Assembly (NCBI RefSeq): GCF_030406045.1 | Contig: NZ_CP128988.1 | Coordinates: forward strand, 2,567,001-2,631,000 | DNA: 64,000 bases | Reading direction: 5' to 3' | Source of the DNA: Thiohalobacter sp. IOR34 | GTDB taxonomy: Bacteria; Pseudomonadota; Gammaproteobacteria; Thiohalobacterales; Thiohalobacteraceae | Shown here: positions 3,186 to 47,117 of the stretch, piece after piece | Numbering within the stretch: position 1 is the stretch's first letter | Layout of the letters: each line of letters begins with the position of its first letter | The notes under the pieces: model-generated | Database searches by the model: none | What the model saw: only the letters and a program-made list of their open reading frames with translations | Told to the model about the DNA's origin: nothing | Program-made: the position numbers and the translations under genes

Positions 3186-3305
3186 TGATGGCCACGAAAT
3201 CCACGAAACCCGCGAAAAGCCTTTGAATTGGGAACATGCACGAAACACGGATCCCGCCAGCATCGATATCTCTTTCGTGGATTTTGTGGATTTCGTGGCT
3301 ATAAA
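3186..3305. repeat. 9-bp-period repeat element, inverted arms (purD-purH gap)
   Basis: Left arm ATGGCCACGAAATCCACGAA and a right arm ending GGATTTCGTGGCTAT are inverted relative to each other, about 50 bp apart. Each arm is built from 9-mers of the type CCACGAAAT. The same unit recurs in many other gaps of this window. On the transcript it would form a large imperfect hairpin between purH and purD. No gene is visible in it. Confidence 0.85.
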
Positions 3306-4926: not shown

Positions 4927-5050
4927 GGCCACGAATCCCACGAAATCCACGAAAGAAAATTGATGCTTGTGGGACCCGCGCTTCGCGCGTGGTCCCAATA
5001 ACTAAAGACCTTTCGTGGGTTTCGTGGATTTCGTGGCTATTGGATTTCCG
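4927..5050. repeat. 9-bp-period inverted repeat with strong inner hairpin (purH-fis gap)
   Basis: Arms GGCCACGAATCCCACGAAAT (from 4927) and TTTCGTGGATTTCGTGGCTA (to about 5039) are inverted copies. The loop holds a second hairpin at 4971-4996, GGGACC-CGCGC-TTC-GCGCG-T-GGTCCC. The nested structure lies between fis and purH, and its GC-rich inner stem could attenuate transcription on either strand. Further TTTCCGTG units follow to 5056. No open frame of interest lies here. Confidence 0.85.
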
Positions 5051-5065
5051 TGTTTTCCGTAGCGA

Positions 5066-8272: not shown

Positions 8273-8740
8273 TCACAACCACACCGCATCCCAGAACGGA
8301 TAGTCCCCAATATGCCTGACCAGGCCCGCGCGAAGGGGATTGGCAATCAGGTATCGCGCAACGCTGCGAAGATCCTCTTCCTGACGCAGCGCATGGTCGT
8401 GATAACCGGGCTGCCAGACCGGCTGACCTGGACTCTGGCGCAGGACGTTGACCCGGCGCGCCGTGTAGGACTTGAGCGAGCCCATCAGAGTATCGAGCGT
8501 GGCACCTTCGCCAAGCCGTGCCAGCCAGTGGAGGTGGTCGGGCATGACGACGAAGGCCAGCGACTCGGCACGCCCCAGTTTCTGCTGATATTGCAGACCG
8601 TGAATGACGGCTCGCGCCAACGACATCGCCCTGAAAAGCGGGGCGCGGTCTTTCGTCACGCTTGTCAGGAGGTAGATGCGACCGGCCTCAGAGACACGGC
8701 CACGCCGGAGGTTCCGGCCATGCGGTAGCTGCCATTCCAT
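8273..8740 (-). CDS. REP-associated tyrosine transposase (RAYT, Y1/TnpA_REP)
   Basis: RAYTs are single-copy, domesticated IS200/IS605-type Y1 transposases that bind and cut REP hairpins. The 155-residue product starts MEWQLPHGRNLRRGRVS at 8740, with GAGGTG 4 bases upstream. It has the N-terminal segment RIYLLTSVTKDRAPLF, the HUH metal-binding motif VVMPDHLHWL (HLH) and the C-terminal catalytic-tyrosine helix VARYLIANPLRAGLV. The longer open frame extends only through REP sequence and should not be used. It is flanked directly by REP array B downstream and by four REP units upstream, the classic RAYT-REP arrangement. It sits between the DUF3426 gene and prmA, breaking a conserved gene cluster. 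Confidence 0.93.
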   Translation of the reverse strand: MEWQLPHGRNLRRGRVSEAGRIYLLTSVTKDRAPLFRAMSLARAVIHGLQYQQKLGRAESLAFVVMPDHLHWLARLGEGATLDTLMGSLKSYTARRVNVLRQSPGQPVWQPGYHDHALRQEEDLRSVARYLIANPLRAGLVRHIGDYPFWDAVWL

Positions 8741-8789
8741 GGAGCACCTCGGCTTGTATTCCGCCCCGTCCTTGGGGTGAGGGGAGTAT

Positions 8790-8962
8790 ATCGCGGCCGG
8801 GAGGCCGCTCCTACAGGGGTGCGGCGGAACCTCTGTCCCATGTAGGAGCGGTCTCCAGGCCGCGACCGGGATGCCTGCCAATCGCGGCCGGGAGGCCGCT
8901 CCTACAGGGGTGCGGCGGAACCTCTGTCCCCTTGTAGGAGCGGTCGCCAGGCCGCGATCTGG
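8790..8962. repeat. REP units upstream of the RAYT gene
   Basis: Four REP units of the same subtype as array B alternate in orientation between the RAYT start and prmA: inverted at ~8790, forward at ~8840, inverted at ~8882 and forward at ~8933. The spacer GGGGTGCGGCGGAACCTCTG is shared with array B. The RAYT gene is therefore bracketed by near-identical REP pairs on both sides. Confidence 0.9.
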
Positions 8963-10630: not shown

Positions 10631-11971
10631 CTACAGGCCGAGCTTCTTCTCCAGGTAGTGGATGTCGGTGCCGCCCTCGATGAAGGCGGCATCGGCGCAG
10701 ATGTCCTTGTGCAGGTCGATGTTGGTCCTGATGCCGTCGATGACCACTTCGGCCAGGGCGCCGCGCATGCGCGCCAGCGCCACCTCGCGGCTCTCGCCGT
10801 GGGCGATGATCTTGCCGATCATGGAATCGTAGGTCGGCGGCACCGTGTAACCGTTGTAGATGTGGGAATCGACACGGATGCCCGGTCCGCCGGGGGCGTG
10901 GTACTGGGTGATGGTGCCGGGCGAGGGCATGAAGGTGCGGGCGTCCTCGGCATTGATGCGGCACTCGACGGCGTGGCCGATGATGCGGATGTCCTCCTGG
11001 CGGTAGGACAGGCCCTGGCCGGCGGCGATGCGCAGCTGCTCCTTGACGATGTCCACGCCGGTGATCATCTCGGTTACGGGGTGTTCGACCTGGACGCGGG
11101 TGTTCATCTCGATGAAGTAGAACTCGCCGTCCTGATAGAGGAACTCGAAGGTGCCGGCACCGCGGTAGCCGATGCGCCGGCAGGCCTCGGCGCAGCGCTC
11201 GCCCATCTCGGCGCGCTGTTCCGGGGTGATGCCCGGTGCCGGCGCCTCCTCGACCACCTTCTGGTGACGACGCTGCATGGAACAGTCGCGCTCGCCGAGG
11301 TGGATGGCGTTGCCCTCGCCGTCGGCCAGCACCTGGAACTCGACATGACGCGGCCGCTCCAGGTACTTCTCCATGTACACCGTGCCGTTGCCGAAGGCGG
11401 CTGCGGCCTCGGCCTGGGTCAGGGAGATGGCATTGAGCAGATTGGCCTCGGCATGCACCACGCGCATGCCGCGCCCGCCGCCGCCGGCCGCGGCCTTGAT
11501 GATCACCGGGTAGCCGATCTCCCGGGCCAGGCGCAGATTGGTCTCCGGGTCTTCACCCAGCGGCCCGCCGGAGCCGGGCACGGTCGGCACCCCGGCCTCC
11601 TGCATGGCGCGGATGGCCTGTACCTTGTCGCCCATCATGCGGATGGTCTCCGGCCGCGGACCGATGAACACGAAACCGGACAGCTCCACCTGCTCGGCGA
11701 AGTCGGCATTCTCCGACAGGAAGCCGTAACCGGGATGGATGGCCACGGCGTCGGCCACCTCGGCGGCGCTGATCAGGGCCGGAATGTTGAGATAGCTCTC
11801 GGCGGAGGGCGGCGGGCCGATGCATACCGACTCGTCGGCCAGACGCACATGCTTGAGATCCCGGTCGACGGTGGAATACACCGCAACGGTACGGATATCC
11901 AGCTCGCGGCAGGCGCGAAGGATGCGCAGCGCAATCTCGCCGCGGTTGGCAATTACGACTTTATCCAGCAT
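10631..11971 (-). CDS. accC: Acetyl-CoA carboxylase biotin carboxylase subunit
   Basis: AccC carboxylates the biotin of AccB using ATP and bicarbonate, the first half-reaction of fatty-acid synthesis. The 446-residue product has standard length and starts [20 protein letters not shown]. Motifs are [15 protein letters not shown], the glycine-rich ATP loop [29 protein letters not shown] and the catalytic/metal strand [15 protein letters not shown] with [11 protein letters not shown]. It normally follows accB by a few tens of bases. Here ~640 bp carrying a GxxExxY gene and 9-bp-period repeats separate them. Its upstream region therefore consists of repeat arm rather than a normal operon junction. 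Confidence 0.98.
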
Positions 11972-12015
11972 TTTCTACCGCCACGAGACAGCCACGGAAT
12001 CCATGGAAAAATGTT

Positions 12016-12044
12016 GGCCACGGAATCCACGGAAAAACACGGAA
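12016..12044. repeat. Left 29-bp inverted arm of the GxxExxY cassette
   Basis: The arm begins GGCCACGGAATCCACGGAAA and runs 29 bases. Its reverse complement is present at 12555-12583 with a single mismatch. It is made of 9-mers (CCACGGAAT, CCACGGAAA). More degenerate copies (GCCACGAGACAGCCACGGAA) extend out to about 11980, next to the accC start. The two arms bracket the GxxExxY gene at 12101-12466. Confidence 0.88.
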
Positions 12045-12100
12045 AATCTTCATTGCATTCATATTCACTCAAATATCGTCATGGGTCGCCTGCCAATCAG

Positions 12101-12466
12101 TCAGACCACCATACGTTTGATGACAGCACGTGGATATGTGAAATTGATCAGCAAACCGATTTGTCGGCCACTTACCTTCAGATAATTCAGCAATTGCGCT
12201 TCATGCACCGGCATCAAATTGTCCTGCGCCTTCAGCTCGATCAGGATTCGCCCCTCAACAAGAATATCGACGTAATATTCCCCAACCTCTCTACCCTTGT
12301 ATGACACCTTTAATGGCACCTGCGCCTGTGCCCGGATACCGCGAACCTCAAACTCTCTGATCAACGCCTTCTCATAGACCTTCTCTAGATATCCAGCTCC
12401 AAGAACGCGATAGACCTCATACACACAACTTCTCACCTTATAGGTGAGATCCCTCTCCACCAGCAT
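12101..12466 (-). CDS. GxxExxY protein, PD-(D/E)XK nuclease-like
   Basis: This is a small protein of the GxxExxY family, of unknown role. The family falls in the PD-(D/E)XK nuclease superfamily. The 121-residue product shows the name-giving motif in GAGYLEKVYEKAL (residues ~23-35). A candidate nuclease core follows, EYYVDILVEGRILIELKAQD, with Asp and the E-x-K triad spacing. The C-terminus is YLKVSGRQIGLLINFTYP. It is inserted between accB and accC, where no gene is normally present, and its base composition is visibly lower in GC than its neighbours. It is bracketed by 29-bp near-perfect inverted repeats of the 9-bp-period family, which suggests a discrete mobile cassette. Family call secure; function and mobility inferred. 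Confidence 0.9.
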   Translation of the reverse strand: MLVERDLTYKVRSCVYEVYRVLGAGYLEKVYEKALIREFEVRGIRAQAQVPLKVSYKGREVGEYYVDILVEGRILIELKAQDNLMPVHEAQLLNYLKVSGRQIGLLINFTYPRAVIKRMVV

Positions 12467-12554
12467 CGTCTTCCTCCATGAAAACGAATATCCGCCCTGT
12501 CAGACAGGCCGCCAGCAATATTCACCAAGGTTCACGAAACAAGCAACAACATTC

Positions 12555-12583
12555 TTCCGTGTTTTTCCGTGGATTCCATGGCC
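12555..12583. repeat. Right 29-bp inverted arm of the GxxExxY cassette
   Basis: The arm begins TTCCGTGTTTTTCCGTGGAT and is the inverted partner of 12016-12044 (28 of 29 bases). It continues into further 9-mers, TTTTCGTGGGTTTCGTGGCC, up to 12610, ending a few bases before the accB stop codon. Together the arms define an insertion of about 600 bp within the accBC operon. Confidence 0.88.
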
Positions 12584-12615
12584 ATCATCTTTTCGTGGGT
12601 TTCGTGGCCATGCAC

Positions 12616-13068
12616 CTATTCAATAACAAACAGCGGCTCGCCGAACTCCACCGGCTGGCCGTTCTCGACCAGGATGGCGGCGATGGTGCCGGCCTTGTCG
12701 GCCTCGATCTGGTTGAGCATCTTCATCGCCTCGATGATGCACAGGGTGTCGCCGACGTTGACCCGCTGACCGACCTCGACGAAGGGCGAGGCGCCCGGCG
12801 AGGGGGCGCGGTAGAAGGTGCCGACCATGGGCGAGGTCACCACGTGGCCTGCCGGCAGCTCCTCATTCGGCGCCTCGGCAGGAGCCGCTGCAGGCGCCTC
12901 GGCGACCGGCGGCGGGGGCGGCGGCGCAGTGACGGCCACCGGTGCCGCGGGGGCGGCGGCGGAATAGCGGCTGATGCGCACCGACTCCTCGCCCTCGTGA
13001 ATCTCGATCTCGGCGATGCCGGACTCTTCCAGCAACTCGATCAGCTTTTTGACTTTTCGGATGTCCAT
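12616..13068 (-). CDS. accB: Acetyl-CoA carboxylase biotin carboxyl carrier protein
   Basis: AccB carries the covalently bound biotin that shuttles CO2 from AccC to the carboxyltransferase. I start it at 13068 ([20 protein letters not shown]), the family N-terminus, giving 150 residues; an upstream extension to 13146 has no family similarity. A Pro/Ala-rich linker (residues ~50-75) joins the N-terminal part to the biotinyl domain. That domain contains [15 protein letters not shown] and the biotinylation site [15 protein letters not shown] (Lys of AMKM). It lies 25 bp downstream of aroQ, the usual aroQ-accB-accC order. Confidence 0.97.
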
Positions 13069-13093
13069 GACTGCCTTTACCGTTCTGTTTCGG

Positions 13094-37564: not shown

Positions 37565-37573
37565 AAGCTTGGA

Positions 37574-37591
37574 GAATTCAGAATTCAGGAG
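37574..37591. repeat. Left 18-bp inverted arm of the S23 cassette
   Basis: GAATTCAGAATTCAGGAG lies 10 bp after the export-protein stop. Its exact reverse complement occurs at 37980-37997, over the stop codon of the four-helix-bundle gene. The sequence is two and a half 7-mers (GAATTCA). Confidence 0.92.
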
Positions 37592-37611
37592 TCAGAATAA
37601 GGAGGATGGCG

Positions 37612-37986
37612 ATGGCAAGGAAGCCGTCAAGATCGTTTCAGGATTTGATCGTCTGGCAGAAGGCACATCGTTGGGTGCTGGATGTCTATCGGCACAGCGC
37701 CGGATTTCCAAAGCATGAACTCTATGGTTTGACTTCACAATTCAGGCGTGCGGCCATTTCCGTACCTGCCAATATCGCCGAGGGTTTCAAGAAAACCGGC
37801 ACGAAAGACAAACTTCGTTTCTTGAATATCGCCCAGGGCTCGCTGGAAGAATGCCGTTATTATACGTTGCTATCCAGGGATCTGGGCTACTGGGACGAGG
37901 GATTACCAAACAAACAACTGGAAGAGGTCAGCAAACTGTTGGATGCCTATACGCGCTCAATTCAGACATCAATTTCTGCCTCCTGA
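37612..37986 (+). CDS. Four-helix-bundle protein (S23 / 23S rRNA IVS-like, Avd-related)
   Basis: The 124-residue product starts at 37612 (MARKPSRSFQDLIVWQKAHR); AAGGAGG sits 6 bases upstream, better placed than for the ATG at 37606. Family signatures are FQDLIVWQKAHRW, LTSQFRRAAISVPANIAEGF and FLNIAQGSLEECRYYTLLSR, forming four amphipathic helices. The family includes proteins encoded in 23S rRNA intervening sequences and the Avd accessory protein of diversity-generating retroelements, which bind nucleic acid as oligomers. No reverse transcriptase is present here. It is bracketed by a perfect 18-bp inverted repeat whose right copy contains the gene's own stop codon and continues into 22 tandem 7-mers. 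GC content is lower than its neighbours. It splits an exopolysaccharide operon. Confidence 0.92.
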   Translation: MARKPSRSFQDLIVWQKAHRWVLDVYRHSAGFPKHELYGLTSQFRRAAISVPANIAEGFKKTGTKDKLRFLNIAQGSLEECRYYTLLSRDLGYWDEGLPNKQLEEVSKLLDAYTRSIQTSISAS

Positions 37987-38137
37987 ATTCTGAATTCTGA
38001 ATTCTGAATTCTGGATTCTGGATTCTGGATTCTGAATTCTGAATTCTGAATTCTGGATTCTGGATTCTGGATTCTGGATTCTGGATTCTGGATTCTGGAT
38101 TCTGGATTCTGGATTCTGGATTCTGGATTCTGGATTC
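37984..38137. repeat. Tandem heptamer array, 22 copies of TGRATTC
   Basis: Exactly 154 bp made of 22 perfect-period 7-mers, each TGAATTC or TGGATTC. The order is four A-type, three G-type, three A-type, then G-type to the end. It begins at the TGA stop of the four-helix-bundle gene and ends 7 bp before the ATG of the outer-membrane barrel gene. Related heptamer tracts occur at 57608-57708, 59131-59158 and 61211-61279. Such a tract is prone to copy-number change. Confidence 0.97.
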
Positions 38138-38144
38138 TCAAAAA

Positions 38145-39425
38145 ATGATAACCATGCCCAAATCCCTCACAGCGATTACCCTTGTCTTGCTTGGCTCACT
38201 GGCGCCGCCTTGTTTCTCCGCCGAATGGGCCCTCGACCCCATGGTCTCGGCCCGGCTGCGTTACGATGACAACCTGCGGATGCGCACGAGCAATGAGATC
38301 TCGGCAACCGAGTACGCACTGAAACCGGAACTGGCCTTTCTGCGCACGACGGCGGTCAGCCAGGTCAAGGGCACTGTCGGCTTCGATTTCAGGCGCTTTG
38401 ACAAGGACGAGCTGGACACCAACGACAGTTTTCTCGACCTGGCTTCCTATTACCGCACCGAGCGCAGCCGCTGGGACCTGGGCGCCCGCTATACCCGCGA
38501 CACCACCCTGGACAGCGAGCTGGAGGAAAGCGGCATCGTCTATGAACGGATCCGCCGCACCAGCCGTTCCCTGAACCCCGCCTGGTCCTACATGCTCGAT
38601 CCGACCCGCCAGCTCAAGGCCAGCTACTCCATCAGCCAGATCCGCTACGAAAACAACCAGAACACCTATTTCAGCGACTACGACTACCAGGGCCTGACCC
38701 TGGAGTACAACCAGCGCTGGTCGGCGAAGACATCGGTCACGGGCAATCTGAGCCAGACCCGCTACGAAAACGGCAGCAACACGGTGCGTTCCGATACCAC
38801 CCAGGTTCAGGTCGGCGCCAGCCACGAATTCAGTGAACGCTGGTCCGCCTCCGCCCTGGCCGGCGCCCGGCGCACGCGCACCACGACCCGGGTCGGGCTG
38901 CTGGTCTGCCCCGGCCTGGATCTGCGCAGCTCCCCCCTGTCCCTGCTGTTCGGCCCCTGCGTCGACCCGGTGACCCTGGCGCCACTGGCCTTCACGGTAC
39001 AGACGGAAAGCCGCAGCAACAGCAGTACCGGTTCCGTGTTCACCCTCCAGACGGCATACGGGTTCGAGACCGGCTCGCTGTCGGCTTCCGCCACCCGGTC
39101 GGTCTCGCCCAGCGCCACCAACGGCCTGATCGTCCGCGACCGCCTCAGCCTCTCCGCCGAGAGGCGGCTGTCGGAGAAACTCACCCTCTCAGCCAAGCTG
39201 GGCTGGTACCGCACCAGCGCCACGGACAGCGAAATCGGCAACCTGAACCGCAAGTATCTGGAATTCCAGCCCCGTCTCACCTGGCGGATCGACCGCGACT
39301 GGCGCCTGAAAACCAGCTATCGGTTCCGCAAGCAGAGCTACGAAAGCCAGCTGGACAGCGCCACCGGCAACACCCTGACCGTGACACTGGTCTATGCCTG
39401 GCCTAAAATGGCCGTTTCACGATAA
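38145..39425 (+). CDS. Outer-membrane beta-barrel of exosortase/PEP-CTERM exopolysaccharide loci
   Basis: The 426-residue protein starts MITMPKSLTAITLVLLGSLA (a second Met at 38154 is an alternative) with a signal peptide ending near CFSA. The remainder is alternating amphipathic strands typical of a barrel (LRYDDNLRMRTSNEISATEY, DLGARYTRDTTLDSELEESG), closing with LTVTLVYAWPKMAVSR. It matches the type of barrel found between the export and chain-length genes of XrtA loci (TIGR03016-like) and is likely part of the polysaccharide exit route. The heptamer array ends 7 bp before the start and no proper ribosome site is visible, so its translation or expression may depend on the array. Two Cys in LVCPGLDL...GPCVDP may pair. 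Confidence 0.85.
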   Translation: MITMPKSLTAITLVLLGSLAPPCFSAEWALDPMVSARLRYDDNLRMRTSNEISATEYALKPELAFLRTTAVSQVKGTVGFDFRRFDKDELDTNDSFLDLASYYRTERSRWDLGARYTRDTTLDSELEESGIVYERIRRTSRSLNPAWSYMLDPTRQLKASYSISQIRYENNQNTYFSDYDYQGLTLEYNQRWSAKTSVTGNLSQTRYENGSNTVRSDTTQVQVGASHEFSERWSASALAGARRTRTTTRVGLLVCPGLDLRSSPLSLLFGPCVDPVTLAPLAFTVQTESRSNSSTGSVFTLQTAYGFETGSLSASATRSVSPSATNGLIVRDRLSLSAERRLSEKLTLSAKLGWYRTSATDSEIGNLNRKYLEFQPRLTWRIDRDWRLKTSYRFRKQSYESQLDSATGNTLTVTLVYAWPKMAVSR

Positions 39426-46439: not shown

Positions 46440-47117
46440 CCGATCGCGGCCTGGAGGCCGCTCCTACAAGAAATCTCGCCGCCATACCCGTAGGAGCGGT
46501 CTCCAGGCCGCGATTGCCACCGCCGCGGCGCGTGGATTCCGTGGCCATCGATCTTTTTATGGGTTTCGCTGGTTTCGTGGCCATCCCAGGTTCCGCCTGA
46601 CGAGGCCGCCTCGGTTGATACCCCCCGATCGCGGCCTGGAGGCCGCTCCTACAATGCTTTCCGTGGATTCCGTGGCCATCGATCTTTTCGTGGGTTTCGC
46701 GGGTTTCGTGGCCATCGTAGGTTCCGCCTGACGACGGCGGGTAATGCCACCTCGATCGCGGCCTGGAGGCCGCTCCTACAATGTTTTCCGTGGATTCCGT
46801 GGATTCCGTGGCCATCGATCTTTTTCGTGGGTTTCGCGGGTTTCGTGGCCATCGTAGGTTCCGCCTGACGACGGCGGGTAATGCCACCTCGATCGCGGCC
46901 TGGAGGCCGCTCCTACAATGTTTTCCGTGGATTCCGTGGCCATCGATCTTTTTCGTGGGTTTCGTGGCCATCGCCGGTTCCGCCCGACGACGGTGGACGA
47001 TGCCCGCCCTTCGATCGCGGCCTGGAGGCCGCTCCTACAATGTTTTCCGTGGATTCCGTGGCCATCGACCTTTTCGTGGGTTTCGTGGATTTCGTGGCTA
47101 TCGCCAATTCCGCCTGA
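46440..47117. repeat. Array I: five tandem copies of a REP + 9-mer composite
   Basis: Copies start near 46441, 46626, 46753, 46890 and 47011. Each has an inverted REP unit (CGATCGCGGCCTGGAGGCCG) followed by TTTTCCGTGGATTCCGTGGC, CATCGATCTTTTTCGTGGGT, TTCGTGGCCATC and a closing GGTTCCGCCTGACGACGGCG. One forward REP unit is present at 46491. The spacing of 120-185 bp and the conserved internal sequence show head-to-tail amplification of a fused REP/9-mer element. No gene. Confidence 0.92.

Follow-up and report, generated by a model that had tools for sequence, protein, structure and literature searches.

The GxxExxY gene of Thiohalobacter sp. IOR34 lies in the 644 nt between the stop of accB and the start of accC, within the 64,000-nt stretch of the genome (G000; 2.96 Mb, one contig) that was analyzed as a whole and is referred to here as the window. 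accB-accC is an essential operon, and the gene, which is read in the operon direction, is enclosed by nested arrays of short repeats that are inverted with respect to each other (Table 1). Among the element-free relatives that were measured, the accB-accC gap is 3–83 nt. The preliminary description had placed the gene inside accB-accC between inverted 29-nt arms, and both statements were borne out: the downstream inner arm reads GGCCACGGAATCCACGGAAAAACACGGAA, and, apart from one mismatch, the upstream one is the reverse complement of that sequence. A repeat search extended the full arms to 54 nt each (11991–12044 and 12555–12608; 87% complementary). Local alignment of the two flanks of the gene scored 75, whereas none of 2000 shuffles exceeded 30.

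Table 1. Coordinates of the GxxExxY element, its host operon and gene-less arm arrays in the window.
Feature	Position	Strand	Basis or remark
Gene-less inverted pair, CACGAAA arms	3192..3298	.	Example of a presumed non-autonomous form
Gene-less inverted pair, CACGAAA/CACGGAA arms	4938..5062	.	
accC (host operon; downstream of the element)	10631..11971	-	ORF list; orthologues in relatives
Interval from accC start to accB stop, containing the whole element	11972..12615	.	19 nt in G007, 83 nt in G003
Downstream arm, outer array (CACGGAA-TC-CATGGAA)	11991..12010	+	
Downstream arm, inner CACGGAA-type array, inverted relative to 12555–12583	12016..12044	+	
GxxExxY gene, 121 aa, predicted PD-(D/E)XK nuclease (E28, D67, E77-x-K79, Q91-xxx-Y95)	12101..12466	-	PF13366 and TIGR04256 matches, invariant residues, AF2 model
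GGAGG, likely ribosome-binding site of the GxxExxY gene	12473..12477	-	Inferred from the sequence GGAGGAAGACGATG
Upstream arm, inner CACGGAA-type array (gene strand: CATGGAA, CACGGAA, CACGGAA)	12555..12583	-	
Upstream arm, outer CACGAAA-type array	12584..12609	-	Nested outer and inner arms also seen at gene-less sites
accB (host operon; upstream of the element)	12616..13069	-	ORF list; stop/junction comparison
Cluster of CACGGAA/CACGAAA arm units without GxxExxY gene	46528..47097	-	

Profile searches assigned the product to the GxxExxY family (TIGR04256, E 1.7e-40; PF13366, E 1.5e-39), with scores of 138 and 135 bits against curated cut-offs of 35 and 22, respectively. Across 57 GxxExxY sequences, E28, K79, Q91 and Y95 are invariant (57/57 each) and D67 and E77 are each present in 56/57. 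The AF2 model of the window protein (pLDDT 96.4, pTM 0.89) has a PD-(D/E)XK fold, and its nearest solved fold is Cas4 SSO0001 (4ic1; Foldseek E 1.4e-4; VIA Z 9.9 over 100 residues, rmsd 4.2), followed by lambda-type exonucleases, restriction enzymes and the Holliday-junction resolvase Hjc, the remaining fold matches having Z near 8 and not being suited to over-reading. By sequence, the search for a solved homologue gave only an insignificant match, and 18/57 family members matched PF01930 weakly. These profile matches, residues and model agree with the GxxExxY product and D...ExK core that had been read from the single sequence, and the protein is predicted to be a small Cas4-like nuclease of the Cas4/RecB type. 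dN/dS values of 0.12–0.32, where measurable, indicate purifying selection on the gene. One active-site exception, D67G, occurs in the accB-accC copy (L039) of G009, a genome that has also lost most of its trpE-trpG gene.

The protein shares the PD-(D/E)XK fold and the D, ExK and QxxxY residues with Cas4/RecB-type nucleases. In contrast to Cas4, however, its 121 residues include one cysteine, which leaves no four-Cys iron-sulphur cluster, and its gene lies outside a cas locus, in a housekeeping operon. Hjc is likewise a small PD-(D/E)XK protein, but it is the lower fold match and is encoded by a conserved housekeeping gene, whereas the GxxExxY gene is patchy and enclosed by repeats. A defence system was not supported, PADLOC returning no match, and neither was a phage origin: tblastn found no phage match and eight matches in non-mobilizable plasmids.

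Inverted arms proved to be a trait of the gene family. All 15 GxxExxY loci found in the host family carry short-period arms by inspection; the arms are inverted on the two sides in every locus that retains both flanks, one contig stopping just past the gene. For a broader sample, one genome per species was scanned, yielding 80 GxxExxY loci from many phyla and from archaea; these were chosen by a conserved peptide motif and under-sample divergent members, and many come from metagenome-assembled genomes (MAGs), in which contigs can be misplaced. We reverse-complemented the downstream flank of each locus, aligned it to the upstream flank and called the locus positive at a score of at least 30. 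Across phyla, 58/78 GxxExxY genes had inverted arms of about three short units; offset windows taken from these loci were positive in 0.7% of cases and mismatched flank pairs in 6%. Under one definition in Gammaproteobacteria, arms were found at 27/29 GxxExxY, 24/30 DUF559 and 0/30 PIN/VapC loci; S23 loci, a set that includes other classes of the phylum, were positive in 23/34 cases. The enrichment on which the preliminary description had staked its reading is thus present, and the D...ExK residues, the loss of which would have told against that reading, are retained across the family. Offset controls across the surveys were positive in 0–0.7% of cases and lie mostly in coding DNA, a point that the PIN control addresses. 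DUF559 was itself tried as the negative control, but its loci carry CCCTCTCCC/GGGAGAGGG repeats of their own and scored positive, so PIN/VapC was taken instead. Typical GxxExxY arms across phyla are AACCGCCAAGACGCCAAGGTCGCCAAG, AACCACAGATGAACACAGATGAACACAGAT, GACAGGATTACAGGATTGACAGGAT and CCACAGAGACACAGAGGCACAGAG, with about three 7-nt units repeated directly in each arm, which is not self-palindromic.

The arm motif also changes with the protein clade, which goes beyond the single-sequence view from which this work started. On a tree of 92 GxxExxY proteins, which is weakly resolved owing to few columns, nine arm types required 23 changes (shuffled mean 44, minimum 39), and a two-state split between units ending in AG and all other types required 3 (shuffled mean 22.7, minimum 17; 300 shuffles). 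The association persisted when the comparison was confined to loci of different phyla (Mantel rho -0.30, 0/1000 permutations), and the arm type therefore appears either to be passed on together with the protein or to be matched to it in different hosts. That the GxxExxY protein directly recognizes the arm motif would be the simplest reading of this co-variation, and joint travel of arms and gene alone could yield part of it. Closely similar proteins with the same CGCAGAT arm type were also seen in a Methanosarcinales archaeal MAG (L062) and a Brocadiaceae MAG (L055), the latter copy having an internal stop.

The co-variation bears on whether the gene is passive cargo, that is, whether the arms are independent mobile or slippage-generated repeats that prefer small foreign genes and have no relation to GxxExxY. 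S23 and DUF559 genes also lie within inverted repeats, and in G000 the arms surround several different interiors, as this explanation would predict. PIN genes, however, are as small and as patchy and were negative throughout, every family comes with a repeat type of its own, and that of GxxExxY tracks the protein tree across phyla. We therefore regard passive carriage as extremely unlikely.

Repeats greatly outnumber genes. The core 17-mer of the arms occurs at 30 sites in the window (at most 3 mismatches; 0.18 expected), and the genome holds 212 CCACGGAATCCACGGAA-like sites (at most 2 mismatches), compared with 1 for the reversed control pattern; it contains a single GxxExxY gene. The preliminary description had noted the same repeats at other sites without a gene. 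Such sites do exist, but they are mostly inverted pairs about 70–110 nt apart, usually with three units per arm, rather than solitary repeats. Most of the 20 gene-less stretches that we fetched follow the plan ATRGC-CACGRAA-tc-CACGRAA-nn-CACGRAA and its inverted counterpart; some have outer CACGAAA and inner CACGGAA arms nested, and a GC-rich palindrome is often found inside. At one place in the genome (L251–L254, 778000–788950), a GC-rich palindrome is ringed by several nested arm arrays, as if one element had inserted into another. Among 369 gammaproteobacterial genomes, 63 have a GxxExxY gene, several with broken copies. Ten or more arm triples were present in 26/63 genomes with the gene and in 13/306 without it (odds ratio 15.8, p 1e-13), so arm-rich genomes without the gene also exist.

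Evidence of movement comes from copies within one genome, which were found at different sites in two genomes. G285 has two 464-bp copies of gene plus arms, 90.5% identical, at distant sites with unrelated flanks; the homology begins at one arm and stops at, or about 17 nt beyond, the other, and one of the copies has a stop codon. In G094, a gene that is truncated at its N terminus and bounded by arms is present twice (86.5% identity over 349 bp); the arms are the same in both copies and the flanks unrelated. Gene copy number is low (1–5), and these two cases are the few recent within-genome duplicates. Sites also turn over. At one site shared by two sister species of a genus (G164 and G274), the flanking genes have dS of 0.32 and 0.36 and the element 1.9; the two proteins share 72/122 residues and the arms are CACGAAT and CACAGAT, which indicates replacement or a second insertion rather than simple descent.

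Junctions in the host genome and its relatives are variably occupied. The uninterrupted accB-accC junctions that the preliminary description had proposed looking for occur in relatives (gaps of 19 nt in G007 and 83 nt in G003); five genomes carry the element there, and G005 has gene-less remnants. The five accB-accC proteins form one clade, and that insertion is therefore old and inherited. At trpE-trpG, the element is present in G006, G008 and G010, while G000 and G005 have no insert and G009 keeps both arms with only the start of the gene. Upstream of argG, it is present in G004 and G010, and others have gene-less arm pairs of several types. Although empty junctions were seen at accB-accC and trpE-trpG, their flanks are too diverged to fix the element ends. 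Junctions also recur across gammaproteobacterial families, namely trpE-trpG (f1 and f155) and carA-carB (f162 and f128) (L277/L279, L268/L271 and L033/L044/L045), and argG is another recurring site.

Recurrence at accB-accC, trpE-trpG, carA-carB and argG would suit a homing-type cassette, in which the nuclease cuts the uninterrupted conserved operon junction, recombination copies the cassette in, and the arms are incidental or serve expression. That account leaves unexplained the clade-specific arm motif, the abundance of gene-less arm pairs and the same-genome copies at unrelated sites, and we consider it very unlikely. The history of these sites also bears on a domesticated regulator that binds arm motifs genome-wide, in its own operon and at gene-less sites, and affects transcription or chromosome structure, the unit now being immobile. 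Purifying selection on the gene, long residence in accB-accC, more than 100 arm sites in G000 and placement in biosynthetic operons are consistent with such a role; the patchy occurrence (63/369 gammaproteobacteria), frequent decay with stops, within-genome copies, same-site replacement and intact nuclease residues argue against it, making domestication improbable overall.

The two arms of one element had spacers of equal length in 92/94 cases, compared with 61% between same-type loci, and the arms of one locus resembled each other more than same-type arms elsewhere (p 1e-15). Mismatches between arms showed no G.U bias (163 compatible, 160 incompatible), and RNA pairing is thus apparently not the main constraint; an RNA-hairpin constraint was considered and found unsupported on these counts, and the constraint looks to act on DNA. 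Where both neighbours were callable under a crude ORF rule, 53 loci had both co-directional with the GxxExxY gene and 3 had both opposed; among a few PIN loci the counts were 5 and 4. Agreement this close (53:3) is seldom expected of a transposon that inserts at random, and calls for selection or for a mechanism tied to one strand. The bias points to reliance on host transcription or to selection once the element has inserted.

Similar features are known from the intervening sequences (IVSs) of 23S rRNA, which contain one small ORF inside inverted arms and have been proposed to be former mobile elements, their origin and function being called unclear (PMC4990558). S23 genes outside rRNA (L213–L242, L046–L052) have inverted arms of period 7–8 (GGCAGTA, GTGAGTA, GTGAGGA, GGGATGA), and in orientation 21 of these loci had both neighbours co-directional and 0 opposed. 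By extension, the GxxExxY arms could pair in the mRNA into a long stem; cleavage there by RNase III, or by an enzyme like it, would remove the gene segment from the operon transcript. The arm architecture shared with S23/IVS genes, the Coxiella IVS, in which RNase III cuts a 28-bp stem and heptamer repeats precede the ORF (PMC4990558), the transcribed orientation and the matched spacers all fit this possibility. Selection for RNA pairing would, however, be expected to leave an excess of G.U-compatible changes, which the arms lack, and the unit sequence itself, beyond complementarity, is kept across phyla and tracks the protein clade. The S23 four-helix-bundle protein is unrelated to GxxExxY, whose profile searches gave no S23 match. 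Patterns for 23S rRNA landmarks were absent from the loci examined, which places the sampled elements outside rRNA as far as the landmarks show, and the window element is inserted between protein-coding genes. We view an IVS-like RNA element as rather unlikely.

Instead, the GxxExxY gene and its arms probably form a minimal mobile or formerly mobile unit that consists of one small Cas4/RecB-type nuclease gene and two inverted arms, comparable to RAYT/REP systems. At the sequence level, this reading is supported by the family-wide arms, their co-variation with clade, the conserved nuclease residues, purifying selection, duplication, site turnover and decay with arms left behind. We infer that the protein recognizes the arms, cuts them and promotes copying to new sites. 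Each arm would offer about three 7-nt recognition units spaced 8–10 nt apart; the nuclease would most likely recognize its own motif as DNA, either double-stranded or as an extruded hairpin, and cut or nick there. The unit, or a gene-less arm-bounded derivative, could then be copied into intergenic gaps via host repair or replication. Over time the gene would decay while the arms persist, giving gene-less hairpin-like elements. In the window, the orientation within accB-accC may allow read-through transcription to express the gene.

The preliminary description had drawn a formal analogy to RAYT/REP with an unrelated protein and repeat, and the inverted arms, co-variation, abundance correlation and faster divergence at one site uphold it. 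As in RAYT/REP systems (REPIN, BIME), a single small nuclease-type gene lies between two inverted repeats, repeats far exceed genes in number and tend to be more abundant where the gene is present, the repeat varies along with the protein, and the gene diverges faster than its neighbours, here at one tested site (PMC2817692, PMC3116915). The differences are that RAYTs are Y1 HUH tyrosine transposases and GxxExxY proteins are PD-(D/E)XK nucleases, that REPs are single hairpins and GxxExxY arms comprise about three direct 7-nt units, and that GxxExxY elements are spread across bacterial phyla and archaea. Profile searches of the GxxExxY protein returned PF13366 only and no Y1 HUH transposase domain; given its enzyme class and repeat design, it is not a RAYT. 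The analogy in how the element would work holds, although two defining features, the Y1 transposase and the single REP hairpin, are missing. Insertion sequences and MITEs are also alike in having a gene between inverted ends together with gene-less derivatives. They differ from the GxxExxY element in that no transposase domain of the DDE, serine, tyrosine or HUH kind was found in its protein, and in that its ends are multi-unit and, set in flanks too diverged to fix them, show no demonstrable target-site duplication.

The likeness of the S23 and DUF559 loci to the GxxExxY architecture suggests several parallel systems, and our findings suggest an overlooked class of very small mobile DNA that recurs across bacteria and archaea. 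We lean towards the view that these are widespread and so far undescribed elements, minimal and autonomous, whose sole protein, a stand-alone Cas4/RecB-type nuclease, acts on inverted short-unit arrays, gene-less derivatives being mobilized in trans, and that GxxExxY, DUF559 and S23 are parallel systems, each with cognate repeats. We found no description of the GxxExxY family or its arm repeats in open-access papers, and no useful match there for DUF559 genes with repeats. Short-period intergenic repeats such as CGCCAAGACGCCAAG, CACAGATGAACACAGAT and ACAGGATTAACAGGAT have no assigned partner in searchable open-access papers, and co-varying motifs now link them to one uncharacterised nuclease family. 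If true, this would be a new class of mobile element, with an enzyme type not known to transpose alone; the parallel systems together would explain many short-period intergenic repeats of environmental bacteria and possibly share a common logic with rRNA intervening sequences.

Members of the neighbouring systems were also observed. The single-gene DUF559/PF04480 nuclease loci (L283–L312, Gammaproteobacteria) have inverted CCCTCTCCC/GGGAGAGGG repeats, along with CCCTCACCC, in 24/30 cases. The window itself contains an S23/four-helix-bundle gene (TIGR02436; 37606–37986, + strand), whose arms (about 37572–37605 and 37979–38147) are inverted GAATTCAG / CTGAATTC-CTGGATTC arrays. A RAYT-like Y1 transposase gene (PF01797) is found at 8273–8881 (- strand) among TGTAGGAGCGGC...GCCGCGAT repeats, and its position among such repeats makes a classical RAYT/REP pair near the GxxExxY element likely.
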